Shown: positions 33,739 through 51,921 of the stretch, piece by piece
Layout of the letters: every line of letters starts with the position of its first letter
Position numbering within the stretch: position 1 is the stretch's first letter
From: Dehalococcoidia bacterium
Lineage (GTDB): Bacteria; Chloroflexota; Dehalococcoidia; Lucifugimonadales; UBA3495
DNA: 52,205 nt
Assembly: GCA_022823505.1 (NCBI GenBank)
Contig: JAJEIA010000024.1
Span: 1 to 52,205 of the forward strand
Direction of reading: 5' to 3'
Program-made: the position numbers and the translations under genes
The notes under the pieces: generated by a model
Seen by the model: the letters and a program-made list of their open reading frames with translations, nothing else
The model's database searches: none
Told to the model about the DNA's origin: nothing

Positions 33739-35058
33739 CTATGCGGCAGCGCGCTGCTCGGCGAGCTCGGCGATCCTGGCGCCGGGTCGATTGTCGCCGA
33801 TGGTCCACACCAGCACGGCGGAGACCACCAGCAGGATGATGTTGGTCCAGATGGCGATCTCGTAGTTGCCGCGCAGGTCGAACAGATACCCGCTGAGCGC
33901 CGAGCCTATGCCGGAACCGATGGGCATCACCGCGAACATCGTCCCGTAGATCCGGCCCAGGTTGGTCGTGCCGAAGCCGTCTGAGGCGTAGGCGGCGGTG
34001 ATCCCAACCACCGCGTTCCACGAGAAGCCGACCAGCACCATCCCGATAACCAGGGGGACGACGCCCAGGGCAGGAACGCCCAGGAACGGCACTCCCATCG
34101 AAAGAAGGACGACTACGAACCCCCCCATGCGCAACTGGTAGGAAGCAGCCAACAGCCTCCGCCTGCCGTATTGGTCCGACAGATGCCCCAGCAGCAGCGA
34201 GCCGACGATGGCCGTGGCGCCGATCAGGCTGAACGCGCCGGCGCCCACCAGCGGCGAGAAACCCAGGTCACGGGCGTAGGTCACGAAATGAGCATTCACG
34301 AAGCTCATCGAGTAACCTCAAACGAAGTAGCCGAAGGTCAACCGGTAGAAGAACCCGGTGCGCAGGGCCTGTCCGAACGTGACGGGGTCCTGCGCCGCCG
34401 CCGGATTCCGCGGTCCGCCGGAGCCCGGTCCGCCCGCGCCGTCGGGAGGCTGGCCGTAGGGCTGCAAGCCCTTGTCCCCGGGCTGGTTCTTGATCAGGAA
34501 CGCCCCGATTGGAAACACCACCACCAGCAACAGCAAGCCCAGGAAGAGGTACGCTTCACGCCAGTCGAGCAAAACCAGAAAGATGGAAGTGGCCGGCACC
34601 AGCAGCATTGCGCCCATGGAGCCGGCGCCGCCGGTGATGCCCAGCGTCAGACCACGACGGGTCAGGAACCATTGGCTGACGATCTTGGTTAGAATGGGCC
34701 CGGTGCCCAGGGTGATGCCGGTGCTCATCACGCCGAACACCAGGTACAGCTGCCACAGGGTGTTGACCATGGGCAGCAACACCAGCATGAAACCCATGAT
34801 GGCCACGCCGCTGAGGGAAGCCCACTTTGCGTCGTACCGGTCGGCCAGGTACCCGGCCAGCGGTCGCAGCAGACCCGAAATCATGTAGGTGATCCCGAAG
34901 GCCAGCGACAGGGTCCCGCGGCTCCACCCGAACTCCTCGGTCATGGGGTGCAGAAACACGCCGAAGGAGAACTGGCCCCCGGACACGCCCAGAGTCACCA
35001 TGGCGCAACCGAAGACGACGTACCAGCCGTAGAAGGTGTTTCTGAGCGTCGATACCAT
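33739..35058 (-). pseudogene. MFS transporter (MCT/oxalate-formate antiporter-like) interrupted by one in-frame TGA
   Basis: Two adjacent open frames are in the same reading frame and together make one 439-codon, 12-helix MFS transporter: an N-terminal half (FYGWYVVFGCAMVTLG onward, 246 codons) and a C-terminal half (192 codons). They are separated only by TGA at 34320-34318 in the context FGYFV-stop-GYSMSFV. Relatives usually have Cys (TGC/TGT) there, so one base change explains it. The rest is intact, with no other stops or frameshifts. ATG 35058 (MVSTLRN) is the likely original start. The family exports or exchanges monocarboxylates. It may be a recent pseudogene, a sequencing error or a recoded UGA. 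Confidence 0.8.
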
Positions 35059-35204
35059 CGCAGTGGTCGACCATGCCTCAACGAGTGAGCCGCCTGTACT
35101 CGCCGCGCGGATGCGGGGCTGGCGCAATAGTAGATGCGCGGAAGACGGCGCGCAACCGTCGTGCCGACAGAGGCTCACGCGTACCCAGTTTGCGGCGGGG
35201 AAAC

Positions 35205-37214: not shown

Positions 37215-37955
37215 TTACGACGGCCGCTGGGTCTCGCTCTCCTCGTCGGGCGGGAGAACCTCGAGCAGGATCGCCTCTTCGCTGAGGCGGGCGGCTTCGC
37301 CGAGAACCTCGGGCCGGTCCTCGATGAGCAGTTCGGAATCGACCATCGCGGCTTTTTCGGGGCGGTGGTCGGCGTGAGTCAGGATGTTGTGGGTGATCAC
37401 CACCATGGCCAGGGCGGTCAAGCCAAACATGACGGCCCAATCGTGTCCACGGAGGGTGTTGAGGGCCAGCATGGCTCCGAACCCCATGAAAATACCGATG
37501 GACGATCGGAACACCGACCGGCGAGACAACAGCACGGTGACGATCCCGATGGCAATGCCCACGAGAATGTACCAATTGAGATAGGCAAGCGAAACGCCCA
37601 CCAGGACGACCATGCCGTCTCCGCCCTTGAACCCCGTGAAGATGCTCTTCCAGTGACCCGCGATCGCGGCCGCTCCGGCTACAATGGCCGCCAGCTCGGG
37701 TACGCCCAGCATCCAGGCCACCACCACAGCCAGGGCCCCCTTGATGACGTCGCAGGCGAAGACCAGCATGCCCCGCCGGCGCCCCACGTGCCAGAAGACG
37801 TTTGCGGTGCCGGCGCGCCGGCTTCCGGTGGCGAAGATGTCAACGCCCTTGAGGCGCGCCACCAGGTAGGCGAAAGGGATGCTGCCGAGGAGGTATCCGA
37901 CCAGCGCCGCCGCGAGCACGCGGGGGATCAGGGGTAGCAGATCGTCAAAGAACAT
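37215..37955 (-). CDS. plsY: PlsY-like glycerol-3-phosphate acyltransferase
   Basis: A 246-residue membrane protein of the PlsY family, which moves the acyl group from acyl phosphate to glycerol 3-phosphate, the first step of phospholipid synthesis. Family motifs are GSIPFAYLVARLKGVDIFATGSRRAGTAN (in pieces: G44-S45 to N52), D69-V-I-K-G and GHWKSIFTGFKGGDGM. The last differs from the usual GGKG (D113 in place of Lys), and the H101-W-K-S replaces GH..P. An acidic tail of about 45 residues follows residue 200. It is the last gene of the minus-strand operon with the radical SAM and methyltransferase genes, 54 bases after them. Confidence 0.85.
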   Translation of the reverse strand: MFFDDLLPLIPRVLAAALVGYLLGSIPFAYLVARLKGVDIFATGSRRAGTANVFWHVGRRRGMLVFACDVIKGALAVVVAWMLGVPELAAIVAGAAAIAGHWKSIFTGFKGGDGMVVLVGVSLAYLNWYILVGIAIGIVTVLLSRRSVFRSSIGIFMGFGAMLALNTLRGHDWAVMFGLTALAMVVITHNILTHADHRPEKAAMVDSELLIEDRPEVLGEAARLSEEAILLEVLPPDEESETQRPS

Positions 37956-38009
37956 TTAACAAGGCGATGGCCGGTCGGGTCGGCGAGATAATAGCACAGC
38001 AGGCGCCGC

Positions 38010-38801
38010 TCAGTACGGATTGCGTCCCACGTACAGCCAGTAGCCGATCTGTCCACGGGATACCGATTGCTCAACTCGATCCAGCAACCCGGGAGCGGTT
38101 TCGGCCAGGTCGGCGGTGAGTTCCAGCGAGGCCATGCCGACGGCCGCGCCCAGGGCGAGCTTGCCGCGCAGGTCCGCCAGCAGCGTCATCACCTCGTCGG
38201 AAAGGTCCTCCGGCTCGCTCGCGATAAAGCCGGAACACTCCAGGAGATCCTGGTACCCGTCGGCGGGCTGCGCGTCCGTCAGGCACAGCATCATGCCGAC
38301 CGTTCCGTCCAGCTCGGGCGGGAGGCTCCCCGGCTCCACCGTCACGTCGGAGATGCCGACCACGCCGCCGGGTCGGAGCAGACGGCGCACCCGCGAAATG
38401 GCGGCTGCCTTGTCCACGAACAAGCTGGTGGCGCACTCGATGATGACGGCGTCAAAGGCTCCCTCGCGGAAGGGTGGCATCTCGGCATCGCCGCGCACGA
38501 AAGCAACGTCGGCGGGAACCGGCTGCTCCAGCGCCCGCCGGCGGGAGGACGCCGAGGCCTCCGCGCCCAGCTCCAGGCCGATCACCCGGCAGCGGAAGAC
38601 GCGAGACAGGGCGGTGGCGCTGGTGCCCAGCCCGCACGCAAGGTCCAGGACGCGCCAGCCGGCCTGCAGGCCCATGGCGCGTCCCAGCCGGTTGGTGGCG
38701 CGCAGGCCGCCCGGATGCAGGCTGTCGCCCAGGATGAGGCGGGCCAGCTCCGAGGAGTAGAGATCGGCGCAGCAGATCTTCGCTGCGTAGGTGTCCAGCA
38801 T
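38010..38801 (-). CDS. Class I SAM-dependent methyltransferase paired with the radical SAM enzyme
   Basis: A 263-residue methyltransferase. SAM motif I is VLDLACGLGTSATAL (residues 51-65), then VIGLELGAEA, FVRGDAEMPPF and FDAVIIECATSLFVD. The N-terminal YSSELARLILGDSLHPGGL block precedes the fold. The ATG at 38801 lies 11 bases after the radical SAM stop, with little ribosome-site sequence, so translation is probably coupled. It likely methylates the product or substrate of the upstream radical SAM enzyme; a lipid or small-molecule target is inferred from the operon. The frame extends far upstream but only as a shadow. Confidence 0.82.
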   Translation of the reverse strand: MLDTYAAKICCADLYSSELARLILGDSLHPGGLRATNRLGRAMGLQAGWRVLDLACGLGTSATALSRVFRCRVIGLELGAEASASSRRRALEQPVPADVAFVRGDAEMPPFREGAFDAVIIECATSLFVDKAAAISRVRRLLRPGGVVGISDVTVEPGSLPPELDGTVGMMLCLTDAQPADGYQDLLECSGFIASEPEDLSDEVMTLLADLRGKLALGAAVGMASLELTADLAETAPGLLDRVEQSVSRGQIGYWLYVGRNPY

Positions 38802-38812
38802 CGCGGCGACCG

Positions 38813-40273
38813 TCAGGCCTTGCTCTCGCCGTTGCGGGCGACAGAGAGGATTTTCTGCCGGCCTTGCTCCATGGTCAGCTGCTCGCGGATCTGCTCCCGG
38901 TAGCCCACGGAGTTGTAGGAGCAGAAGGGGATGGCGCGGCCGTCCGGCGTAAGGATCCCGACGCAGCACTTCATGACCTGCTTGACGTTGAAGGTCCAGG
39001 CATCCAGGAAGTCCTTGATGGCGATCTGGAATACGTGCTCCTTGAGGTGGTTGACCTCGTAGGGCAGATCCAGGCCGGGTCCGCAGGCGCACTCGAACTG
39101 GCCGGCCGTCTGCTCGGTGCCCGCCACGGCGGACGCGGACCACAGGCCTTCCAGGGCCGTCTGGATGTCGGCGGCGTTGGGCGGCTTGGGCAGGGCGCGG
39201 TTGGTGATGTAGTCCAGGTACTGGTCGATGTCCAGCAGGCGTGGCAACGGTGTGACGGTGTCGCCGTCCACAAACAGGTAGGAATTGACCTGGCACGTCG
39301 GGAAGCAGCAGGGCACGGGAACGAAGTCCTCCAGCACAAAGCGGCCGTCCGTCTGGTCCACGATGCCGTGGATGATGTCGGGGATGGTCACGCGCGTCAT
39401 AGGGTCGAACTCGATGTGCCGGCCCACGTGGGTAACGGGTTGGAACACCACGCCGCGCACGGCCGGGTGCTTCAGGCCGAACTCTACGATGTCCCCCACC
39501 TCGTCGGTGTTCACGTCGCGCTCGATGGCGGCCACCAGCACGGCGGTCATGCCGGCGTCGGCCAAGCGGTCCAGGGCGCGCATCTTGGTGTCAAGCAGGG
39601 GCTCCCCGCGGATGGTCCGGTAGGTCTCGTCGCGGAGGCCGTCGAACTGGAAGTAGACCACCGGGTCCAGGGCCTGCATCTGGGCGAGGAAGCGGTCGTC
39701 ACGGGCCAGGCGCACGCCGTTGGTGTTGATCATCACCTGGCGGATGCCCCGGTCCTTGGCGGCCTGGATCATCTCGGGAAGCTGCGGGTGGATGGTTGGC
39801 TCGCCCCCGCTGAACTGGATCACCTCGGGGTCGCCCTCGATCTCCACGAAGCGGTCCAGCATGAACTCGACCTGCTCCAGGGTCAGGCTGTAGCCGGCGC
39901 CGGCGTTGGCGAAGCAGACCGGGCAATCGAGATTGCAGGCGGTGTTGACCTCGATCAGGGCCAGGCAGATGTGCTGCTTGTGCTCGGGGCAGAGGCCGCA
40001 GTCCAGCGGGCAGCCCTTGTCAACCTCGGTGCTGAATTCCAGGGGGATGGTGCCCGGCTTGTTGAACCGGATGCTGCCGACGTACATCTCCGCGTCGGAG
40101 CTGATGATGCCTTCGAACCACCCGTGTTCGGGGCAGCGTTTCCGCATGTAGACCTTGTTGTCGCGGATAATGACCTGGGCGTCGATGACCGTCTTGCACT
40201 CGGGGCAGATGGAACGGGTCAATTCGTGAAAGATATAGTCGGCGTCCTGCTTGATGCGGTTATTCGTCGTCAA
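38813..40273 (-). CDS. Cysteine-rich radical SAM enzyme, tetraether-synthase/MJ0619-like
   Basis: A 486-residue radical SAM protein. The SAM-cluster motif is C113-x3-C117-x2-C120 (CNLDCPVCF), with a GGEPTIHPQ binding loop. Before it come an N-terminal zinc/rubredoxin-like pair (C23-x2-C26 and RCPEHG with C47) and a second cluster motif (C88-PLD-C92-GL-C95, then C103), and the C-terminal third has more cysteines (CCFPTC, CACG, CC). This layout is that of the MJ0619/Tes family, whose members methylate pterins or join lipid tails in archaea. It starts at ATG 40273, overlapping the DNA methyltransferase stop (ATGA). The product is unknown. Confidence 0.82.
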   Translation of the reverse strand: MTTNNRIKQDADYIFHELTRSICPECKTVIDAQVIIRDNKVYMRKRCPEHGWFEGIISSDAEMYVGSIRFNKPGTIPLEFSTEVDKGCPLDCGLCPEHKQHICLALIEVNTACNLDCPVCFANAGAGYSLTLEQVEFMLDRFVEIEGDPEVIQFSGGEPTIHPQLPEMIQAAKDRGIRQVMINTNGVRLARDDRFLAQMQALDPVVYFQFDGLRDETYRTIRGEPLLDTKMRALDRLADAGMTAVLVAAIERDVNTDEVGDIVEFGLKHPAVRGVVFQPVTHVGRHIEFDPMTRVTIPDIIHGIVDQTDGRFVLEDFVPVPCCFPTCQVNSYLFVDGDTVTPLPRLLDIDQYLDYITNRALPKPPNAADIQTALEGLWSASAVAGTEQTAGQFECACGPGLDLPYEVNHLKEHVFQIAIKDFLDAWTFNVKQVMKCCVGILTPDGRAIPFCSYNSVGYREQIREQLTMEQGRQKILSVARNGESKA

Positions 40274-41142
40274 TTCGCTGCACTCCCAATGTCGACGGTT
40301 TGTGTTGCGTTATGGTGGTCGAAGTCGACCGTGCTCACATCATATTCCGCCAGCCGCGTTTGCATCACGCGTACCGCGTTCGGATTATTGTCAATCAGCG
40401 TGAACTCCCGGCCCTCCCGATGCGCCGCCTCCCCCAGCGTTCCGCTGCCGGCGAAGAAATCCAGCAGCCGGTCGCCCGGATTCGAGTGGACGCGGACGAT
40501 GCGGCTGACGATGGCCAGGGGTTTCTGGGTGGAGTAGCCGGTCTTCTCCCTGCCGGTGACGATGGTCTGCCACCAGACGTCGGTGGGCGTCTTGCCTCGC
40601 GCGGCCTTCTCCGGGCCGACCAGTCCGGGGGCCATGTAGGGGATCCGGTCCATGGCATCGTAGTTGAAGGTGTAGTTGACCGGATCCTTGGCGTACCAGA
40701 GGATGTTGTCGTGCTTGGCCGGCCAGCGGGTCTTCGGGCGGCCCCCATAGTCGTATGCCCAGATGATCTCGTTGATGAACGATTCGCGGCCGAAGATTTC
40801 GTCCAGCATCACCTTGCAGTAGTGAACTTCCCGGTAGTCGACGTGGAAGAACAGGCTGCCTTGGTCATCCAGCACCCGGTGGGCCTCCTCCATGCGAGGA
40901 CGGAGGAACCCGATGTAGTCGTCGAACATGTCGGCGTACTTGCTGCTGCCGACGACCTGGGTGCGGTAGCGGCGACCCTGGAATCCCGTGCGGTCGCCGT
41001 CGGGGTCGGGAGTCACCCGGATGCGGGTGCGGGCCTGTGCCCGGCCGGTGTTGAAGGGAGGATCGACGTAGATCAGCTGGAATTTGCGGTCGGCCAGTGT
41101 CCGCAGGACATCCAAATTGTCGCCGAGTATAATCTCGCCCAT
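40270..41142 (-). CDS. Orphan DNA methyltransferase (beta class, N6-adenine or N4-cytosine)
   Basis: A 290-residue site-specific DNA methyltransferase. Catalytic DPPF (27-30) comes before SAM motif FFAGSGTLG (229-237), which is the beta-class order; target amine is most likely N6-adenine. The motif GYSTQKPLAIVSRIV and the end segment are typical. No restriction gene is nearby, so it is an orphan or regulatory methyltransferase. ATG 41142 has GGAGG 6 bases upstream and a sigma70-type promoter (TTGACG, 18 bases, GATAAT). It overlaps the radical SAM gene by 4 bases (ATGA), so it is the first gene of the operon. Confidence 0.85.
   Translation of the reverse strand: MGEIILGDNLDVLRTLADRKFQLIYVDPPFNTGRAQARTRIRVTPDPDGDRTGFQGRRYRTQVVGSSKYADMFDDYIGFLRPRMEEAHRVLDDQGSLFFHVDYREVHYCKVMLDEIFGRESFINEIIWAYDYGGRPKTRWPAKHDNILWYAKDPVNYTFNYDAMDRIPYMAPGLVGPEKAARGKTPTDVWWQTIVTGREKTGYSTQKPLAIVSRIVRVHSNPGDRLLDFFAGSGTLGEAAHREGREFTLIDNNPNAVRVMQTRLAEYDVSTVDFDHHNATQTVDIGSAAN
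41128..41133 (+). promoter_or_regulatory. TATAAT -10 for the CoA-transferase gene (41222)
   Basis: Consensus TATAAT inside the first codons of the divergent DNA methyltransferase gene, 88 bases before the ATG at 41222. It could make the two divergent transcripts overlap. Confidence 0.35.
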
Positions 41143-41166
41143 CCCGTGCCTCCGATGCGAGGCCGC

Positions 41167-41196
41167 ATTATCCCGTGCGGCAATGGCGACCGTCAA
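41167..41196 (-). promoter_or_regulatory. Sigma70-type promoter of the DNA-methyltransferase operon
   Basis: On the minus strand TTGACG (41196-41191), an 18-base spacer and GATAAT (41172-41167), 24 bases before the ATG at 41142. It is one of the few promoters here with a good -35. Confidence 0.6.
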
Positions 41197-41221
41197 ACCG
41201 CGCACTCACCAGGTGGAATCC

Positions 41222-42454
41222 ATGACCCAGAACGATGCAACGCAGAACGGTCATCCGGCCGGCCCGCTGGCCGGCGTCAAGGTGCTGGACCTGACGCAGA
41301 TCATGGCCGGGCCGATGTGCACCATGCTGCTGGCCGACATGGGCGCCGACGTCATCAAGGTCGAGCGTCCCGGCACCGGCGACGACACGCGGCGCATGGG
41401 GTCGCGCCTGACCCACGACATCGCCGGCGGTTTCCTGGCGCTGAACCGCAATAAGCGCAGCATCGCCCTGGACCTGCGTTCGGACGAGGGGAAAGCCGTG
41501 TTCCGACGCATGGCCGAGACGGCGGACATCGTCGTGGAGAATTTCCGGCCCGGCGTCATGGACCGCCTCGGTCTGGGCTACGAGGCGCTGGCGGAAATCA
41601 ACCCGCGATTGGTGTACGCCAGCATTTCCGGTTTTGGCGGCACCGGGCCCTACCGCAACCGGGGCGGGTTCGACCTGGTGGCGCAGGGTATGAGCGGTTT
41701 GATGTCGATCACCGGCTTCCCCGGCGGGCCGCCGGCCAAGGTGGGCGTGCCCATCACCGACATCGGCGCAGGCAGTTTCACCGCCTTCGGCATCCTGGCG
41801 GCGTACATCCACGCCCAGCGCACGGGTCAGGGCCAGCAGGTGGACGGGTCGCTGCTGGAGGCCGGGATCGCGTTTACGGTGTGGGAGTCGTCGGAGTATT
41901 TCGCCAACGGGGAGATACCCGGGCCCCTGGGATCGGCCCACCGGGTCAACGCGCCGTACCAGGCGTTGCGCACCAGCGACGGCTACATCAACATCGGCGC
42001 GGCCTCCCAACCGACGTGGGAGCAGTTCTGCCGAGCCATCGGGCAGGAGGCCCTGATCGACGACGAGCGGTACCTGGAGCCCAACGACCGCAAGGCGCGA
42101 GAGGCCGAGTTGGCCGAACTCCTGGAGGGCATCCTGGCGGAGCACACCACGGCGCACTGGATGGAACAGTTGGAAGCCGCCGGCGTGGTGGCCGGCCCCA
42201 TCTACGACATGGAGCAGGTGTACAGCAACGAGCAGGTGCTGGCCCGGGAGATGAAGGTCACGCTGGACGACCCGGAACTGGGCGAGTTGAACCACATCGG
42301 CGTGCCGGTGAAGCTGTCGGCGACGCCGGGCAGCATCCGCCACCGTGGCCCGGCCCTGGGCCAGCACAGCCGGGAGATCCTGGCTGAGCACGGGTATGGT
42401 GCGGCCGAGATCGACGGGCTGGTCGACGGGAACACGGTGGGGACGCCGCAGTAG
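41222..42454 (+). CDS. Class III CoA-transferase (CaiB/BaiF)
   Basis: A 410-residue family III CoA-transferase that moves CoA between carboxylic acids. Family segments are VLDLTQIMAGPMCTMLLADMGADVIKVE, VVENFRPGVMDRLGLGY and SISGFGGTGPYRNR; catalytic D180 lies in GVPITDIGAGSFTAFGIL. Typical length is about 400 residues. The start is ATG 41222 after AGGTGG; the frame to 41084 covers the divergent methyltransferase and is rejected. The substrate is unknown. It converges with the three-gene CoA cluster (42480-46158), and the four CoA-transferases here probably differ in substrate. Confidence 0.9.
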   Translation: MTQNDATQNGHPAGPLAGVKVLDLTQIMAGPMCTMLLADMGADVIKVERPGTGDDTRRMGSRLTHDIAGGFLALNRNKRSIALDLRSDEGKAVFRRMAETADIVVENFRPGVMDRLGLGYEALAEINPRLVYASISGFGGTGPYRNRGGFDLVAQGMSGLMSITGFPGGPPAKVGVPITDIGAGSFTAFGILAAYIHAQRTGQGQQVDGSLLEAGIAFTVWESSEYFANGEIPGPLGSAHRVNAPYQALRTSDGYINIGAASQPTWEQFCRAIGQEALIDDERYLEPNDRKAREAELAELLEGILAEHTTAHWMEQLEAAGVVAGPIYDMEQVYSNEQVLAREMKVTLDDPELGELNHIGVPVKLSATPGSIRHRGPALGQHSREILAEHGYGAAEIDGLVDGNTVGTPQ

Positions 42455-42479
42455 CGACTAGGGCAACGGCTGCTATCCC

Positions 42480-43871
42480 TTATTCCGGCGGCTGGCTCGG
42501 GAAATCCGTATCGTAGTCCACTGTCCAGCCCAGCTCCACCTGGCGGTCCAGGGGCACCGACTCGGGTATGCGGGCGCCGGCCAGGGTCTGACCGATAGCC
42601 TCGGTTGATTCCAGGTCTGTGATGTGCGCGGCGGTGAGACCCAGCATATCGGACAGGATGAAACGGTTGTCCTCGCCGAGCATGGGGGCCGGCTTGTGGA
42701 TGCGGACGTCGCTGTTGGACATGCGCCAGCCCCGCGAGACGTACTCTCGGGCACCCAGCCCGGTCTCGGGGCGGTGCTGGGCCGTTTCGAAATAGCCCCG
42801 GGCGCGGAGGTGAGGATCGCCCAGCATGTCCCGCCCATCCAGCACCGGCCCGGCGGGCACGCCGGCATTCTGCAGGATGGTCATGACCTCGTACTTGGTG
42901 CGGGCTCCGGTCCACGCGGAGATGATTTCGTCCAGCGCATCCTGGTTGCCGTGGCGCGTCACCGGGTCGGCGAAGCGCGGGTCGGCGGCAAGCTGAGGCG
43001 TACCGATGGCGTCGCAGAACGCCCGCCAGTCATCATCGTCGCGCACGGCGATCACGGCCCACTGGTCGCTGCCCTGGCAGGGGTAGCAACCGTGGGGCGA
43101 CATCGACTCGTGCCGGTTGCCCATGCGGCGGGCGCGGCGGCCGTTGTAGGCATAATCTAGGATGCCCTCCCCTAGGAAGGACACACCCACCTGGTACATT
43201 GCCAAATCGACCCACATGCCCTGGCCGGTCCTGGCCCGGTGGATCAGGCTGACCATCACGGCAAGCTGGGCGGTCCAGCTGGCCAGGAAGTCGGTGTAGG
43301 AGTTGGCGATCTTGTTGGGTACCGTGCCGGCCGACGTGCGTCCGTCGCCGTCCACGTCAAGGTAGCCCATGAAGGCGCCGGTGCCGTGGGTGGGCTCGAG
43401 AGCGGTGGCCATTGCGCCGAAGTTGGCCCACGGGCCGGAATGGCCGTAGCCGGTGTTGGACACCATGATCAGGTCGGGTCGGACGGCCTTCAGGTTAGGG
43501 TAGTCCAATCCGAAGCGGCGCATCACGCGCGGGGTGAAGTTCTCCAGCACCACGTCGGAAATCGAGACCAACTCGCGCAGGACCTCCAGGGCATCGTCGG
43601 AGCGAAGGTCCAGGGTCACGCTGAGCTTGCCGCGGTTCAGGGTCTGGAAGGTGCCGCCACGCTCCCAGTAGAGTTCGCCCGGGTCGTTGTCCGGGTAAGG
43701 CCCGTTGAGCGTGCGCGTGGTGTCCACGAACTGGTTGTGGTGGGTATCGACCTTTATGACCTCGGCGCCCAGATCAGCCAGGTAGGCGCCGCAGTAGGGC
43801 ATGGCGAAAACCCGGCTCAGGTCGACCACGCGGATGCCCTCCAGCGGCAGATTGCGTTCCGGCATCGTCAT
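42480..43871 (-). CDS. Class III CoA-transferase (CaiB/BaiF)
   Basis: A 463-residue family III CoA-transferase, last of a three-gene minus-strand operon. It has EGIRVVDLSRVFAMPYCGAYLADLGAEVIKVD and VLENFTPRVMRRFGLDYPNL, with the probable catalytic Asp at D194 (SYTDFLAS). It is longer than the usual 400 because of an inserted region near residues 150-190 (LDVDGDGRTSAGTV). ATG 43871 overlaps the stop of the preceding CoA-transferase (ATGA), so the two are translated together and may form a heteromer. Confidence 0.88.
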   Translation of the reverse strand: MTMPERNLPLEGIRVVDLSRVFAMPYCGAYLADLGAEVIKVDTHHNQFVDTTRTLNGPYPDNDPGELYWERGGTFQTLNRGKLSVTLDLRSDDALEVLRELVSISDVVLENFTPRVMRRFGLDYPNLKAVRPDLIMVSNTGYGHSGPWANFGAMATALEPTHGTGAFMGYLDVDGDGRTSAGTVPNKIANSYTDFLASWTAQLAVMVSLIHRARTGQGMWVDLAMYQVGVSFLGEGILDYAYNGRRARRMGNRHESMSPHGCYPCQGSDQWAVIAVRDDDDWRAFCDAIGTPQLAADPRFADPVTRHGNQDALDEIISAWTGARTKYEVMTILQNAGVPAGPVLDGRDMLGDPHLRARGYFETAQHRPETGLGAREYVSRGWRMSNSDVRIHKPAPMLGEDNRFILSDMLGLTAAHITDLESTEAIGQTLAGARIPESVPLDRQVELGWTVDYDTDFPSQPPE

Positions 43872-45079
43872 ATCGCCCCCAGCGCGCGCAGTTGGGCCAG
43901 TTCGTTAGCGGAGCAGCCGAGCTCATCGCCGTAGATCTCCGAGTTGTGCTGCCCCAGCAGTGGCGCGTGGCGTCGCACCTGGTATTCGATTTGTAAAGAG
44001 TCCGGGCCCGACAGGCGCGGCCCCATGCCCGGATAGTCGGCGTCCCCGGCCACCGGGTGGGACACGGCGCGGAAGAACTCGCGCTCCTGCAGGTGGGGGC
44101 AATCGTGGAGGTCGCCGGCGTCCTGAGCCATGCCGAAGACCAGGCGGCGTTCGCCCGATGCCTGGTGCAGCGCCTTTCGGTCCCACTGGGCCAGTCCCTG
44201 GATCAGCAGGTCGTGGATCTCCTCCCCAAACTCGATGCGGCCTGAGCCGGAGGCGAACCGCTCGTCCTGGAGCTCGGGCACGCCGATGAGCTCGGCCACG
44301 GTGGACCAGGGCTGGGAGCCCTGCACCGAGGGGATCACGTAGCCGTCGCGGGCCGGCATCAGTTCCTCGAAACCGGAGCCGCGCACGGGCCGCCGGCCCT
44401 TGATGGCGCCCATGTAGCTGTAGTACGGGACCGCCTGCACCAGGTGCGAGGCCAGGCACTCCACGGTCGACACGTCGATGGCCTGGCCCTGGCCGGTGAA
44501 CATGCGCTGGAACAGGGCCGCGCCGGTGGCAACCGCGCCGTTTATGCCGGCCACGTAGAAGGACTGGTTCAGGGCGTTGCGCAGCGGCTCCTGGTCGGAG
44601 TCCCCGGAGTGGTACATCAGGCCGCTGATCGCGGTGGTCACGATGTCGGTGGCGGCGAAGTCGCGGTAGGGACCGGTCTGGCCGAAGGGCGTGATCGACG
44701 TGACGATCAGGCGCGGGTAGCGTTGCCGCAAACCCTCTGGTTCGATGCAGTGGGGCCTGGCGTCCGGCGGGTAGTTTTCCACCAGCACGTCGGCCGATTC
44801 GAGCAGCCTGTCCAGGAGACCGGCGCCGGCAACCGTTTCCACGTCCAGCGTGATGCCGCGCTTGTTGGTGTTGAGGTAGAGGAAAGGAATGCTCTTCTCC
44901 GGATGGGGATCATCTTCCGCGAAAGGACCCATCCGGCGTGCTTCGTCACCGGCGCCCGGCGGCTCGATCTTGACGACGTCGGCGCCGTAGTCGGCCAGCA
45001 GCTTGCCGCAATAGGGTGCGGAAACGTACCCGCCCAGCTCCAGCACCCGCACGCCGTCCAGCGGCAGTCCGAATGGCAT
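43868..45079 (-). CDS. Class III CoA-transferase-like protein with altered active site
   Basis: A 403-residue CaiB/BaiF protein (DGVRVLELGGYVSAPYCGKLLADYGADVVKIE, ENYPPDARPHCIEPEGLRQR, TPFGQTGPYRDFAATDIV). At the place where relatives have the catalytic Asp, the segment reads NQSFYVAGING with F174, so it may lack CoA-transfer activity or be a structural partner of the neighbour. I chose ATG 45079, 8 bases after the MaoC stop; a TTG at 45109 would overlap that gene by 22 bases. The stop overlaps the next CoA-transferase. Confidence 0.8.
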   Translation of the reverse strand: MPFGLPLDGVRVLELGGYVSAPYCGKLLADYGADVVKIEPPGAGDEARRMGPFAEDDPHPEKSIPFLYLNTNKRGITLDVETVAGAGLLDRLLESADVLVENYPPDARPHCIEPEGLRQRYPRLIVTSITPFGQTGPYRDFAATDIVTTAISGLMYHSGDSDQEPLRNALNQSFYVAGINGAVATGAALFQRMFTGQGQAIDVSTVECLASHLVQAVPYYSYMGAIKGRRPVRGSGFEELMPARDGYVIPSVQGSQPWSTVAELIGVPELQDERFASGSGRIEFGEEIHDLLIQGLAQWDRKALHQASGERRLVFGMAQDAGDLHDCPHLQEREFFRAVSHPVAGDADYPGMGPRLSGPDSLQIEYQVRRHAPLLGQHNSEIYGDELGCSANELAQLRALGAI

Positions 45080-45087
45080 ACCGGCGT

Positions 45088-46158
45088 CTACCACGGTTCC
45101 GCTTCCCAATCCAGGGGCAACGACTGGCCGCGCCGGGGCAGGACGACGGTGGCCGTGCCTGAGGCGGTCTGGTTGCCCCGGTCGTTCTGCAGGTTGACGG
45201 CGCAGTCCACCAGGCCGAAGCCGTTCTCCTCGCGCTTGCCGGTGATGATTCCGGCGGCGGTCAGCGTGTCCCCGGGGAAGTCCATGCCCCGGTGCTCCAC
45301 ATAGAACCGCCGGAACCAGCCCTCTTCACCGGCGAAATCCAGGAGCAGCTGGCCCAGGTACTGGTTTTTCAGGGATCCGTTGACCACCACGTTGGGCAGG
45401 CCCTGGGTCAGTTGCGCGAAGGGCAGATCCCAGTGGATGCGGGCGTAATTGCCGTTGGCGGCCGCCCAGCGGATCAGGTGGGTGGTGGTCATGGGGCCCT
45501 TTATCACCGGGGGCAGGCTGTCGCCCACGGCCACGTCCTCGAAGTGCCGCTGCGCGCCCCCGGCTGGCTGTGGCTTGGGCAGGATCACCTCGGGGTTCGG
45601 CGGGGCAACATCGACGGTGGTGAGATCCTCGGCCACCCGTGCCACGTCGGTGGGCTGCTCGCCGGCCGGCAGGGCGCGGTGGATGCTGACCCGACGGGCG
45701 CGGCTGATCTCCCGGTCGTGCTGGTCGGTCTGGATCTCCTCGCGCACGATGAAGACCAGCGCGCCGGATCGGCCCTGCTTCTCGAATATGTCCAGCATAC
45801 GGAACCGGCGGGTGATCCAGGTGCCGACGCGGACGGGCGCAAGGAACTGCCAGTCGCTGCCACCGTTGAGCCCGTAGCTGTTGAAGGGCAGCGGCACTTC
45901 GAAGTGCCACTCCTGGCCGGCTCCGAAGTAGCCGATGGGCGGCGCGATGTCCTTCCAGGCCGCCAGGGGCGGGCAGAGCAGGCTGCCAAAACGGCTGCGC
46001 TCGGCGTACTCGGGGTCGACGTACAGCGGGTTGTAGTCCTCGATGGCGTCGGCGACGTCGTAGGCCATCTCGGCGCTGATGGGAAACCGGTTGCGCTCGG
46101 GCTCCGATTCGGTGCCGATCAGGGCTTTGACTTCGTCGGTTATCAGGGTGCCGGGCAT
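45088..46158 (-). CDS. FAS1-like dehydratase/MaoC hot-dog protein
   Basis: A 356-residue protein built of two hot-dog domains. The N-terminal half (AIEDYNPLYVDPEYAERSRFGSLLCPPL) is FAS1-like dehydratase; the C-terminal half (VIKGPMTTTHLIRWAAANGNYARIHWDLPFA) is MaoC-type. Such proteins hydrate enoyl-CoA thioesters or dehydrate hydroxyacyl-CoAs. It is the first gene of the operon with the two CoA-transferases, consistent with activation and then hydration of an organic acid. ATG 46158 follows AGGAG. A TTGTAG-17-TAAAAT promoter lies at 46226-46198. Confidence 0.85.
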   Translation of the reverse strand: MPGTLITDEVKALIGTESEPERNRFPISAEMAYDVADAIEDYNPLYVDPEYAERSRFGSLLCPPLAAWKDIAPPIGYFGAGQEWHFEVPLPFNSYGLNGGSDWQFLAPVRVGTWITRRFRMLDIFEKQGRSGALVFIVREEIQTDQHDREISRARRVSIHRALPAGEQPTDVARVAEDLTTVDVAPPNPEVILPKPQPAGGAQRHFEDVAVGDSLPPVIKGPMTTTHLIRWAAANGNYARIHWDLPFAQLTQGLPNVVVNGSLKNQYLGQLLLDFAGEEGWFRRFYVEHRGMDFPGDTLTAAGIITGKREENGFGLVDCAVNLQNDRGNQTASGTATVVLPRRGQSLPLDWEAEPW

Positions 46159-50175: not shown

Positions 50176-51579
50176 CTACCCCGGCCTCATGACCGGACAC
50201 CCCGCGCACATCGCTCCCCGGCTGCCGGGTACGCACTCGTGCCCGGTCGTGTAGGAGGCCAGTGGTTCCATCACGGCGGAGAGGGACGGCGATTTGGGTG
50301 GCAGTAAGGCGACGCCCTCGGACTCGGCGGCGCGGCGGTACTGGGCCTCGCCGAACAGGTCCAGGCGCAGCTGTTTGGCGGAGGGCGGACGCTGGCCGGG
50401 GAACACCACGTAGGGCCAGGCCCGCTTCCGGACCACCCCCATGGCCTGCAGGTCGCGCCAGTTGTCGATGCTGTGCTGGTGGCGGTTCTTCAATATCCGG
50501 TCGGCCGACACCGGGCCGATGCCGGGGATGCGCAGCAGTTGATCGCGTGATGCGGCGTTGAGATCGATGGGAAAGGCGTCGAGGTTCTCCATGGCGATCA
50601 CGGTCTTGGGGTCCTGCTCCAGAGACAGAAAACCGGAGTGGTCGAAGGCCAGACCGATCTCGTCGCTGGAGAACCGGTACACGCGGCGCAACCAGTCCAT
50701 CTGGTACAGCCGGTGTTCCCGTCCGGCGTGGACGGGCGGCTTCTCCTCCATGGGAGTGTGGGTGGCGGGGCGGAAGGGCGGATAGTACACCCGCTTCAGG
50801 TTCCAGTCGGTGTACATCTGGTCGACGCGCCGGTAGATCTGCCGGTCCGACTCGTCGGCCGCACCGACCACGAACTGGGTGGCCTGGCCCACCGCGCCGC
50901 CGCTGGTGGAGGCGGTGAGTTCGTTGATCCATGCCATGGGATCCAGGATGTCACGCTGCAGGTCCTTGTGCGGGCTGATGCGGCGCATCATGTCCGGCTC
51001 CGGGGTTTCGATGTTCACCGACAGGCGGCTGCCCAGCCGGTGGGCGCGTTCGACCAGTTCGCGAGTGGCTCCGGGCATGACCTTGAGGTGGACGTACCCG
51101 CGGAAGCCGTGCTTCTTGCGGATGATCTCAACGGTCTCGACCATGCGCTGGGTGGTCTTGGTGCCGTCGCCGGCGATCCCGGAGCTGAGGAACAGGCCGT
51201 CCACGGACAGCCGGTTGTGCAGCTCCATGAAGGTGTCCGCCAGTTCCTCACGTTTGAAGGCGTACCGCTTGCGCGGCACGTAGATGCTGTTGGGACAGTA
51301 CGCGCAGTCCATCTTGCAGAAGTCGGTGAACATCACCCGCAGCAGGCTGATCTTCTTGCCGTTGGGCAGGCTGGACTTGTAGATGCCCGGCGTGGGGTTA
51401 TTGCGCGGGTCGGAGTAGGCGACACGGTTGGGTCCGGTGGTGGCATAGCCGCTGGCGAACTTCCCGGATCCTGAGAGGTCGGACCGGGCCGCGCCACCGG
51501 TGAGGATGTCGTCGGCGGCCACCATGCCGCCCAGGGTGCGCAGCTTGTCGTATCGGTCGGGCGAGGACTTGATGAGCAT
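50176..51579 (-). CDS. Radical SAM protein with HhH, DNA modification/repair type
   Basis: A 467-residue protein of the putative DNA modification/repair radical SAM group (TIGR03916). The cluster motif is C88-KMD-C92-AY-C95 (FTDFCKMDCAYCPN). Further blocks are DGLFLSSGIAGDGTKTTQRM and VHLKVMPGATRELVE. A helix-hairpin-helix follows near residues 325-360 (NAASRDQLLRIPGIGPVSAD), which supports DNA binding. The C-terminus ends with a Cys pair (CAGCPV). The usual partner, a uracil-DNA-glycosylase-like protein, is not next to it here. ATG 51579 is chosen over the 51645 frame start; GGGAG lies about 11 bases upstream. Confidence 0.85.
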   Translation of the reverse strand: MLIKSSPDRYDKLRTLGGMVAADDILTGGAARSDLSGSGKFASGYATTGPNRVAYSDPRNNPTPGIYKSSLPNGKKISLLRVMFTDFCKMDCAYCPNSIYVPRKRYAFKREELADTFMELHNRLSVDGLFLSSGIAGDGTKTTQRMVETVEIIRKKHGFRGYVHLKVMPGATRELVERAHRLGSRLSVNIETPEPDMMRRISPHKDLQRDILDPMAWINELTASTSGGAVGQATQFVVGAADESDRQIYRRVDQMYTDWNLKRVYYPPFRPATHTPMEEKPPVHAGREHRLYQMDWLRRVYRFSSDEIGLAFDHSGFLSLEQDPKTVIAMENLDAFPIDLNAASRDQLLRIPGIGPVSADRILKNRHQHSIDNWRDLQAMGVVRKRAWPYVVFPGQRPPSAKQLRLDLFGEAQYRRAAESEGVALLPPKSPSLSAVMEPLASYTTGHECVPGSRGAMCAGCPVMRPG

Positions 51580-51921
51580 GGTCAGGCGTCTCCCTTGAGG
51601 CCATGGCATCAGTTGCCCGGCAGTTTGGCGAACCGATGTTCGCACACGACCCCGCGCCGGGTCAACACGTGGGTGTCATTCATGCGGACCCAGTCTGAGG
51701 CGGGGAAACGTCAGCATCAGGATTTTCCGGATTTCATGATTCGGCAGGATTGGGAGCTTTGCATCTCGGAACGGTTCTAATCCCGATGAACCCTGCATCC
51801 CGAAAACCCCGCTTCTGACCGTTTGCACAACCGGATACCGGCCAGCCGCCAGGACTATCGCATATGAAAGTTGAGGTGCCGGTCATGCTGTTGTCCAAAC
51901 CGCGGCGGAGAGGAGGGCACC
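51580..51921. other. 342-base gap holding dyad-repeat copy 3
   Basis: Apart from the repeat at 51710-51819 I see no gene or hairpin; the remainder is probably the upstream region of the radical SAM gene and the degraded end of the transposase locus. Confidence 0.5.
51710..51819. repeat. Dyad repeat, copy 3
   Basis: A 110-bp imperfect palindrome from GTCAGCATCAGGATTTTC to CCCCGCTTCTGAC. It is preceded by CCCAGTCTGAGGCGGGGAAA, matching the sequence before copy 2 in 17 of 20 positions. Confidence 0.75.

Follow-up and report, generated by a model that had tools for sequence, protein, structure and literature searches.

Does a Tes-like radical S-adenosylmethionine (SAM) protein, encoded in a bacterium next to a methyltransferase and an acyltransferase, indicate the synthesis of membrane-spanning lipids as by the tetraether synthase Tes? 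The question is raised by a stretch of 52,205 nucleotides (hereafter the window) from a Dehalococcoidia bacterium (GenBank assembly GCA_022823505.1, contig JAJEIA010000024.1; C97 in our numbering), the genome of which is assembled to 3.7 Mb in 164 contigs with 87% completeness and 7% contamination. Four minus-strand genes, encoding a DNA methyltransferase, a radical SAM protein, a class I SAM methyltransferase and a PlsY-type glycerol-3-phosphate acyltransferase, follow one another there with a 4-base overlap, an 11-base gap and a 54-base gap. This arrangement, pointed out in an earlier note on the same DNA, was confirmed from the open reading frames (ORFs) and the sequence, and Pfam supports all four families. 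The same note proposed that the four genes form an operon for unusual, perhaps methylated or membrane-spanning, lipids. The answer reached here is different: the radical SAM protein is a member of a separate family, paralogous to and distinct from Tes, and the conserved functional unit of this widespread family is a two-gene module, composed of the radical SAM gene and its own methyltransferase gene.

The relationship of the radical SAM protein to the Tes superfamily, as the earlier note had it, is well supported. Its best solved relative is GDGT-MAS of Methanocaldococcus jannaschii (7TOL; phmmer E 1.5e-85, profile search E 4e-123), and chance is excluded by this match together with the recurrence of the radical SAM-methyltransferase gene order in several phyla. 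MJ0619 shares 33.5% identity with the window protein over 93% of the length of the latter (279 bits), and for 12 other Tes rows the identity is 27-33%. An AlphaFold model (predicted local distance difference test score 89.7) takes the GDGT-MAS fold, with template-modelling (TM) scores of 0.82/0.80 to 7TOM over 505 columns, the next-ranked protein being SkfB at 0.36/0.45. Among the NCBIfam models TrsS (NF045646) gave the best score, 371.2 bits against a cut-off of 490, followed by Tes (NF045702), 350.1 bits against 450. The metal ligands are also conserved. C23/C26/C47/H50 align with the rubredoxin iron ligands C9/C12/C33/H36 of MJ0619, C88/C92/C95/H98 with those of the N-terminal cluster, C73/C77/C80/H83, and C113/C117/C120 with C98/C102/C105 of the radical SAM cluster; the number of His83 was taken from this alignment and the other ligands from PMC9433317. 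The nine cysteines listed in the earlier note were correctly placed, and to them the alignment adds C327, C436/C437 and C451, C-terminal cysteines that also have counterparts in Tes (the available part of PMC9433317 lists the ligands without C-terminal cysteine numbers). The N-terminal domain matches PF23545, the HMPTM N-terminal zinc-ribbon domain (69.4 bits, cut-off 27), which is not diagnostic of pterin chemistry because its four ligand positions are those of the rubredoxin site of MJ0619.

The neighbourhood of the gene was compared among 80 named loci, the best 80 of 557 confirmed relatives, so that all locus fractions given below describe the nearest relatives only. The six nearest radical SAM relatives are 81-92% identical and come from metagenome-assembled genomes (MAGs) titled Chloroflexi/Chloroflexota, Dehalococcoidia or SAR202 cluster bacterium, which makes a Chloroflexota bacterium of SAR202 type the most likely host. 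Partners were assigned from neighbour clusters within 7 kb, plus four found by tblastn (L089, L090, L095 and L101). A methyltransferase gene accompanies the radical SAM gene at 49 loci and an Lgt-like gene at 23, while no locus carries both and 8 carry neither; of the partnerless loci L106 ends at a contig edge, and the remaining seven showed no hidden partner in profile searches. At all 44 loci where both ends were located by tblastn, the methyltransferase has the strand of the radical SAM gene and stands downstream of it, within 300 bases in 38 of them, and it is thus the regular partner that the earlier note had seen beside the radical SAM gene. All 23 Lgt-like genes likewise share this strand; 13 of them lie downstream of the radical SAM gene and the remaining 10 upstream. 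Among 251 Chloroflexota genomes, sampled separately, 31 contain a radical SAM match to the TrsS model at E <= 1e-60, 19 of the 20 best methyltransferase matches to NF045667 adjoin a radical SAM gene (the exception is G121:C29), and an Lgt-like gene was present in 7 of the 20 regions fetched around radical SAM genes. Neither partner label is monophyletic in approximately unbiased (AU) tests (p-AU 6e-7 for Lgt, 1e-12 for the methyltransferase); for example, L066 with a methyltransferase groups with L067 and L099, both with Lgt, at support 98. The partner was therefore exchanged more than once. The exclusivity holds per locus and not per genome, since G270 encodes one gene of each kind. A conserved four-gene operon was rejected, because the DNA methyltransferase gene is found at 3 and a downstream, same-strand PlsY gene at 5 of the 80 loci. 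A viral or mobile origin was also rejected: the matches in viral contigs, at 72 loci, were partial and of 23-39% identity. In the open-licence PMC literature we found no description of the pairing reported here and nothing on DVU_1556 or on Lgt with radical SAM and tetraether; for TrsS there was a single review, the accessible part of which lists no more than its name.

The distinction from Tes was examined by phylogeny. The earlier note treated Tes and MJ0619 as two families, which is wrong: MJ0619 is the enzyme solved as tetraether synthase (7TOL/7TOM), and in the available part of PMC9433317 its authors state that the older annotation could not be corroborated. For this reason the proposed test, grouping with pterin-modifying MJ0619 enzymes, decides nothing. 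The other tree check suggested there, with Tes and bacterial homologues, placed the window protein outside the Tes clade. In a 94-row tree a branch with support 100 splits 16 Tes rows from 78 others, and constraining the window protein with Tes was rejected (p-AU 0.0002, 40 rows). The trees are quick ones with support from the Shimodaira-Hasegawa-like approximate likelihood-ratio test (SH-aLRT) and no bootstrap, and the archaeal rows L114, L120 and L131 are long-branched; for the AU tests the groups were named after the trees were known, and the 40 rows are a chosen subset. The 94-row tree repeats an earlier one that went without 18 wanted rows, the duplicates of which had been kept under other identifiers. 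It excludes nine of the 80 named loci, namely L106, L113 and L118 (short or cut), L101 and L065 (complete, removed by thinning), and L069, L074, L088 and L105, which were taken as copies, the supposed duplicates being likewise outside the set.

The same separation is seen in single residues and in the distribution of genes. Met439 and Tyr459 of Tes have been reported, in a source available in part, as invariant across 1,000 archaeal homologues, and in our alignment both are present in 25/25 archaeal and 20/20 acidobacterial Tes rows. The methyltransferase-paired group (49 rows, including the true TrsS, L009) has Met in 1 of the 48 rows with a letter there, this being L009, and Tyr in none of 48; Q or K, and I or F, are mainly found instead. 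Among the Lgt-paired rows with a letter, Met occurs in 2/23, both from Paenibacillus, and Tyr in 0/23. Conversely, Cys103 is present in 47/47 methyltransferase-paired and 24/24 Lgt-paired rows with a letter and in 0/45 Tes rows. A further 35 rows with the label 'other' consist mainly of paired loci duplicated under different identifiers and of partnerless loci. The methyltransferase-paired gene occurs in five archaeal genomes, with the MAG titles Thaumarchaeota, Nitrosotalea, Heimdallarchaeota, Thorarchaeota and Thermoplasmatota. Four of them encode in addition a separate Tes above the cut-off (571-698 bits), and in these four the paired gene scores 253-278 bits. At 46 true-Tes loci neither partner profile matched at E <= 1e-3, within flanks of about 1.5 kb or up to the contig end. 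Orthology to Tes was accordingly rejected on the separate clade, the constraint test, the changed residues at the Met439 and Tyr459 places, Cys103 and the co-occurring Tes, and the tetraether or membrane-spanning lipid synthesis proposed earlier is left unsupported by the same features and the sub-cut-off score.

Some homologues fall outside this division. Three acidobacterial proteins, L219, L221 and L239, form a third paralogue group, which keeps Met439 in 3/3 and Tyr459 in 2/3 (one gap), has lost the N-terminal cluster ligands and falls, with a long branch, among the acidobacterial Tes rows; many other matches to the Tes model with similar scores may belong to this group. The Chloroflexota homologues L037 and L038 stand on a very long branch, and two rows of the group containing them, probably these two, are without the N-terminal cluster ligands. 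A Tes-like match with one in-frame TGA (G358:C89:18779-19708) is of interest since TrsS includes selenoproteins.

The alternative partner belongs to a known lipid-transferring family. Lgt attaches a diacylglyceryl group to a cysteine thiol, and PF01790 was matched by all five of the paired Lgt-like genes that were tested, at 91-156 bits (cut-off 24.9). The linked proteins share the conserved blocks GR.G, PT.LPW, HPTQLYE and RF..EF.R, which we take to be Lgt blocks. Each of the 11 Lgt-paired genomes searched contains, away from this locus, at least one other Lgt with a higher score, and in a 48-row Lgt tree 19 such other copies form one branch (support 99), separate from the linked copies. L327, labelled as unlinked, clusters with the linked copies, and by coordinates it lies about 2.5 kb from a radical SAM gene of G259. 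A link to lipids finds some support in the Lgt-like partner, which is the main independent pointer in that direction.

For the class I METHYLTRANSFERASE (263 aa) the nearest NCBIfam model is DVU_1556/TrsM (NF045667), with 126 bits against a cut-off of 155, and ArsM-type models come next, ArsM itself (NF008823) giving 62.9 bits, far below its cut-off of 263. In a 46-row alignment cysteine is found at Cys71 in 39 rows, at Cys123 in 45 and at Cys173 in 44, and the latter two coincide with two ArsM cysteines present in 5/5 aligned ArsM proteins, including the separate ArsM match of the window genome (263.4 bits, cut-off 263). Cys10-Cys11 lie near the N-terminus and gave no confident alignment to the remaining ArsM cysteines. 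Four conserved cysteines are required for catalysis in most ArsM, according to the part of PMC8552651 available. In a sequence profile search the ArsM chains of PDB ranked tenth and lower. An AlphaFold model of the methyltransferase (predicted local distance difference test score 90.2) gave phosphoethanolamine methyltransferase, AtmM and TleD as the top fold matches, and no ArsM is among the 50 matches listed. ArsM membership by fold was therefore rejected, and the resemblance to ArsM is an argument from sequence and cysteines only. Judged by its profile scores, the methyltransferase is a distant relative of both DVU_1556/TrsM and ArsM.

What reaction could such a module carry out? The reading that we tentatively favor, at somewhat less than even confidence, is that the family performs aliphatic C-H chemistry, probably on a lipid, that the product is alkylated by the partner enzyme, and that the tetraether reaction of Tes does not take place. 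The radical SAM enzyme would generate a 5'-deoxyadenosyl radical from SAM, which would abstract a hydrogen from an unactivated aliphatic sp3 carbon of the substrate, a hydrophobic compound and probably a lipid; the C-terminal [4Fe-4S] cluster would then hold or functionalize the carbon radical, as Tes does, and the product would be methylated by the cysteine-lined methyltransferase here or processed by the Lgt-like membrane enzyme in other lineages. The lipid link suggested in the earlier note gains some independent support, as an Lgt-like gene replaces the methyltransferase at 23 of the 80 loci and PlsY is kept in five relatives, and the tetraether part of that suggestion is not borne out. 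Several observations weigh against our reading. The putative lipid substrate is argued from Tes homology and the Lgt-like partner, not from chemistry; among the NCBIfam models the radical SAM protein scores best with TrsS, and a scan of ten proteins surrounding the true trs pair showed no lipid gene; and enzymes for phosphoethanolamine and small molecules, with no ArsM, rank among the 50 listed fold matches of the methyltransferase. Met is retained at the Met439 place not only in the two Paenibacillus rows with Lgt but also in three rows outside both labelled groups, two of which are Paenibacillus copies. The Tes variants M439A, Y459F and Y459L are reported as active in the part of PMC9433317 available, so that the loss of Met439 and Tyr459 is a family marker and no proof of a lost reaction.

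The closest rival is a TrsS/TrsM-like module of sulfur, selenium or other soft-atom metabolism, acting on a small molecule or a protein, in which case the Lgt-like and PlsY genes would be coincidental or otherwise recruited. We regard this as rather unlikely. It would account for the best NCBIfam matches of the two proteins and for the alignment of Cys123 and Cys173 with ArsM cysteines, and the same kind of gene pair is contained in a trs cluster that passes the cut-offs, that of G121 (L039), with TrsM at 183 bits (>155), TrsS at 543 (>490) and a DVU_1553-type ligase at 343 (>300), along with a C-GCAxxG-C-C protein, a CoA-disulfide-reductase-like protein and a LysR gene scoring 234 bits against the 250 of the selenium-associated model. 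In contrast, both matches of the window pair stay below the curated cut-offs, and the other trs families, C-GCAxxG-C-C and the DVU_1553 ligase, went unmatched in a scan that covered 20 of the window proteins, half of them at E 0.01 and the other half at E 1e-15. The true trs radical SAM protein (L009), which is 34-36% identical to that of the window and has Cys103 and Met at place 439, is long-branched and falls outside the paired clade, and the repeated Lgt-like partner is left unexplained. By these sequence comparisons the window pair is related in design to trs but falls short of the trs profiles. A more specific form of lipid chemistry, and quite an unlikely one in our judgement, is that the family forms C-S (or C-Se) bonds on lipids, setting sulfur on an unactivated tail carbon to give a thiol that the partner caps. 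Tes is described, in the part of PMC9433317 available, as forming a carbon-sulfur bonded intermediate with its C-terminal cluster and giving a sulfur-bearing lipid at limiting SAM; in the window paralogue this trapped intermediate would be the real product, and the new thiol would be S-methylated by the methyltransferase or alkylated with diacylglyceryl by the Lgt-like enzyme. The C-S reading would explain why two unrelated partners replace each other and were never found together at one locus. If it is true, methylthio-lipids are to be expected in SAR202 and Ktedonobacteria, and Planctomycetes and Paenibacillus should contain thioether-linked glycerolipids.

It is very improbable that the protein is a bacterial tetraether or membrane-spanning lipid synthase that joins two phospholipids through their acyl tails, branches and acyl chains being supplied by the methyltransferase and PlsY. 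The identity to MJ0619, the kept metal ligands and the 7TOM fold would agree with it, and bacterial Tes homologues have been proposed for branched glycerol dialkyl glycerol tetraethers (GDGTs) in the available parts of PMC8941075, PMC10087280 and PMC11868695. Set against it are the clade separate from both archaeal and acidobacterial Tes, the sub-cut-off score, the altered Met439 and Tyr459 places with the gain of Cys103, the true Tes in 4/5 archaeal genomes and the partner genes missing from 46/46 Tes loci. About as improbable is the synthesis of organoarsenical or organoselenium lipids, in which arsenic would be bonded to a carbon of an alkyl chain by the radical SAM enzyme and methylated by the ArsM-like methyltransferase, after the pattern of ArsL/ArsM or ArsS/ArsM. 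Radical SAM and ArsM pairs are known to make arsinothricin and to begin arsenosugar synthesis (PMC8552651, part available), the methyltransferase has the two invariant ArsM cysteines, and some relatives carry marine titles (SAR202, ALOHA). Opposed to this, 0/14 neighbour clusters common to at least five loci are ars-like (judged mostly by eye), the window genome has its separate ArsM match while the methyltransferase itself scores 63 bits, many carriers are titled soil or groundwater, and Lgt-like partners fit poorly.

The separation from Tes has a consequence for environmental surveys. Branched GDGTs are read as proxies of temperature and pH, and their producers are inferred from counts of bacterial 'Tes homologues'. 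A Black Sea survey, as given in the available part of PMC11868695, used E < 1e-30 and at least 30% identity to Methanococcus aeolicus Tes, and reported homologues in 281 bacterial MAGs, 111 of Chloroflexota and 110 of Planctomycetota. The window protein would probably pass these thresholds, as judged against MJ0619 (33.5%, 279 bits) instead of the M. aeolicus query. The Tes model NF045702, however, gave above-cut-off matches in 0 of 251 Chloroflexota genomes, where 27 have any match at E <= 1e-60; in 2 of 149 Planctomycetota (phylum of L127), where 22 do; in 26 of 149 Acidobacteria (phylum of L079), where 87 do; and in 57 of 61 genomes of the phylum of L110 (Nitrosotalea title), where 59 have any match at E <= 1e-40. 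Surveys that take any match at about 30% identity for Tes are therefore likely to mix Tes with the window paralogue family. Many bacterial 'Tes homologue' matches look like this paralogue or other sub-cut-off groups, and Chloroflexota counts are probably misleading. The paralogue, being a separate family with its own partner enzyme, should not be taken for a sign of membrane-spanning lipid production. Three residue positions (Met439, Tyr459 and Cys103) and the neighbour gene can sort the two. A radical SAM enzyme that switches partners also makes the pathway directly testable in cultured bacteria, for instance Ktedonobacter and Paenibacillus.

The outer two genes of the window locus (Table 1) have a narrower distribution. 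PlsY follows the methyltransferase on the same strand only in L059, L060 and L061 (73-85% identity) and L063 and L064 (46-51%), and in L087 it is present on the opposite strand. A tetratricopeptide repeat (TPR) gene beyond PlsY is syntenic in the same five loci, and synteny on the opposite flank, where a CoA-transferase gene stands, extends to L062 as well. The neighbourhood with PlsY, found only in SAR202-type kin, thus looks like lineage synteny and no general linkage; of the gene order that the earlier note proposed to look for, the radical SAM-methyltransferase part recurs across phyla and the PlsY part is kept in the five SAR202-type relatives only. PlsY as the only acyltransferase of its kind in the genome was rejected, because the window genome has three PlsY matches; those of L059, L063 and L066 have 4, 5 and 3, and three other Chloroflexota 1 each, so that the copy at the window locus may be specialized. 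It is perhaps a lineage-specific lipid accessory. Among the 80 loci the DNA methyltransferase gene was found only in the three closest relatives, directly beside the radical SAM gene in L059 and L060 and about 1.2 kb from it in L061; it is probably a bystander. A longer, GTG-started form of it extends to 41205, and a GGGAG stretch stands directly upstream of the TTG start of the radical SAM gene.

Table 1. Genes of the locus and residues discussed in the text, in coordinates of the window
Feature	Position	Strand	Remark
DNA methyltransferase	40270-41142	-	290 aa from ATG at 41142; PF01555; N6/N4 type; probable bystander
Radical SAM protein	38813-40273	-	486 aa, TTG start; PF04055 and PF23545; Tes paralogue
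Class I SAM methyltransferase	38010-38801	-	263 aa; PF08241/PF13649; regular partner of radical SAM protein
PlsY-type glycerol-3-phosphate acyltransferase	37215-37955	-	246 aa; PF02660
N-terminal auxiliary [4Fe-4S] ligands C88, C92, C95, H98	39980-40012	-	kept in methyltransferase- and Lgt-paired rows, gaps aside
Cys103, family marker	39965-39967	-	alignment
CX3CX2C radical SAM motif, C113/C117/C120	39914-39937	-	Pfam and alignment
C327, C-terminal cysteine common to Tes	39293-39295	-	alignment
Lys420, at place of Tes Met439 (labile cluster ligand)	39014-39016	-	alignment
Ile440, at place of Tes Tyr459	38954-38956	-	alignment
C436/C437 to C451, C-terminal cysteine region	38921-38968	-	alignment
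Methyltransferase Cys10-Cys11 pair, before HPGG motif	38769-38774	-	C in 43/46 and 46/46 rows
Methyltransferase Cys123, aligned with ArsM cysteine (SNC..PDK)	38433-38435	-	invariant in 38 rows
Methyltransferase Cys173, aligned with next ArsM cysteine	38283-38285	-	invariant in 38 rows

Other genes were noticed in the surroundings. Within 7 kb of the radical SAM gene a flavin adenine dinucleotide (FAD) disulfide-oxidoreductase-like gene, MerA-like by eye, is found at 18 of the 80 loci (for instance L074, L079, L088 and L102) and a CRP-like regulator at 7. In the window itself, three consecutive ORFs of class III CoA-transferase type occupy 41129-45109, two matching PF02515 and the third similar by tblastn. 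Two adjacent minus-strand ORFs at 33739-35178 match positions 241-377 and 2-223 of NF049980, a major facilitator superfamily (MFS) transporter model; either the gene is split or frame-shifted, or the assembly is in error here. Another radical SAM protein is encoded at 50176-51645 on the minus strand and resembles TIGR03916, a putative DNA modification/repair radical SAM protein (292 bits, cut-off 343.5).

In comparison with known systems, the pairs of ArsM with ArsL or ArsS share with the window pair the combination of a radical SAM protein and a class I methyltransferase and the two late ArsM cysteines, and differ in that the window radical SAM protein matches TrsS and Tes best, the methyltransferase is below the ArsM cut-off and no ars neighbours were noticed around these loci. 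TrsS with DVU_1556/TrsM is likewise an adjacent pair of the same superfamilies, and gives the best NCBIfam match of both proteins, whereas the window pair is below both cut-offs and has the reverse gene order. Lgt (PF01790) resembles the alternative partner in family score (5/5 above the cut-off) and conserved blocks, but the linked copies stand apart from the 19 other copies in the tree, and a second Lgt is present in each of the 11 genomes. Tes/GDGT-MAS (NF045702) agrees with the window protein in domain plan, the rubredoxin site, the three cysteine sets (N-terminal, radical SAM and C-terminal) and fold (TM 0.82); the window protein differs from it by a separate clade, a score below the cut-off and Lys and Ile at the Met439 and Tyr459 places, and its family by the additional conserved Cys103 and Cys437 and a regular partner gene.

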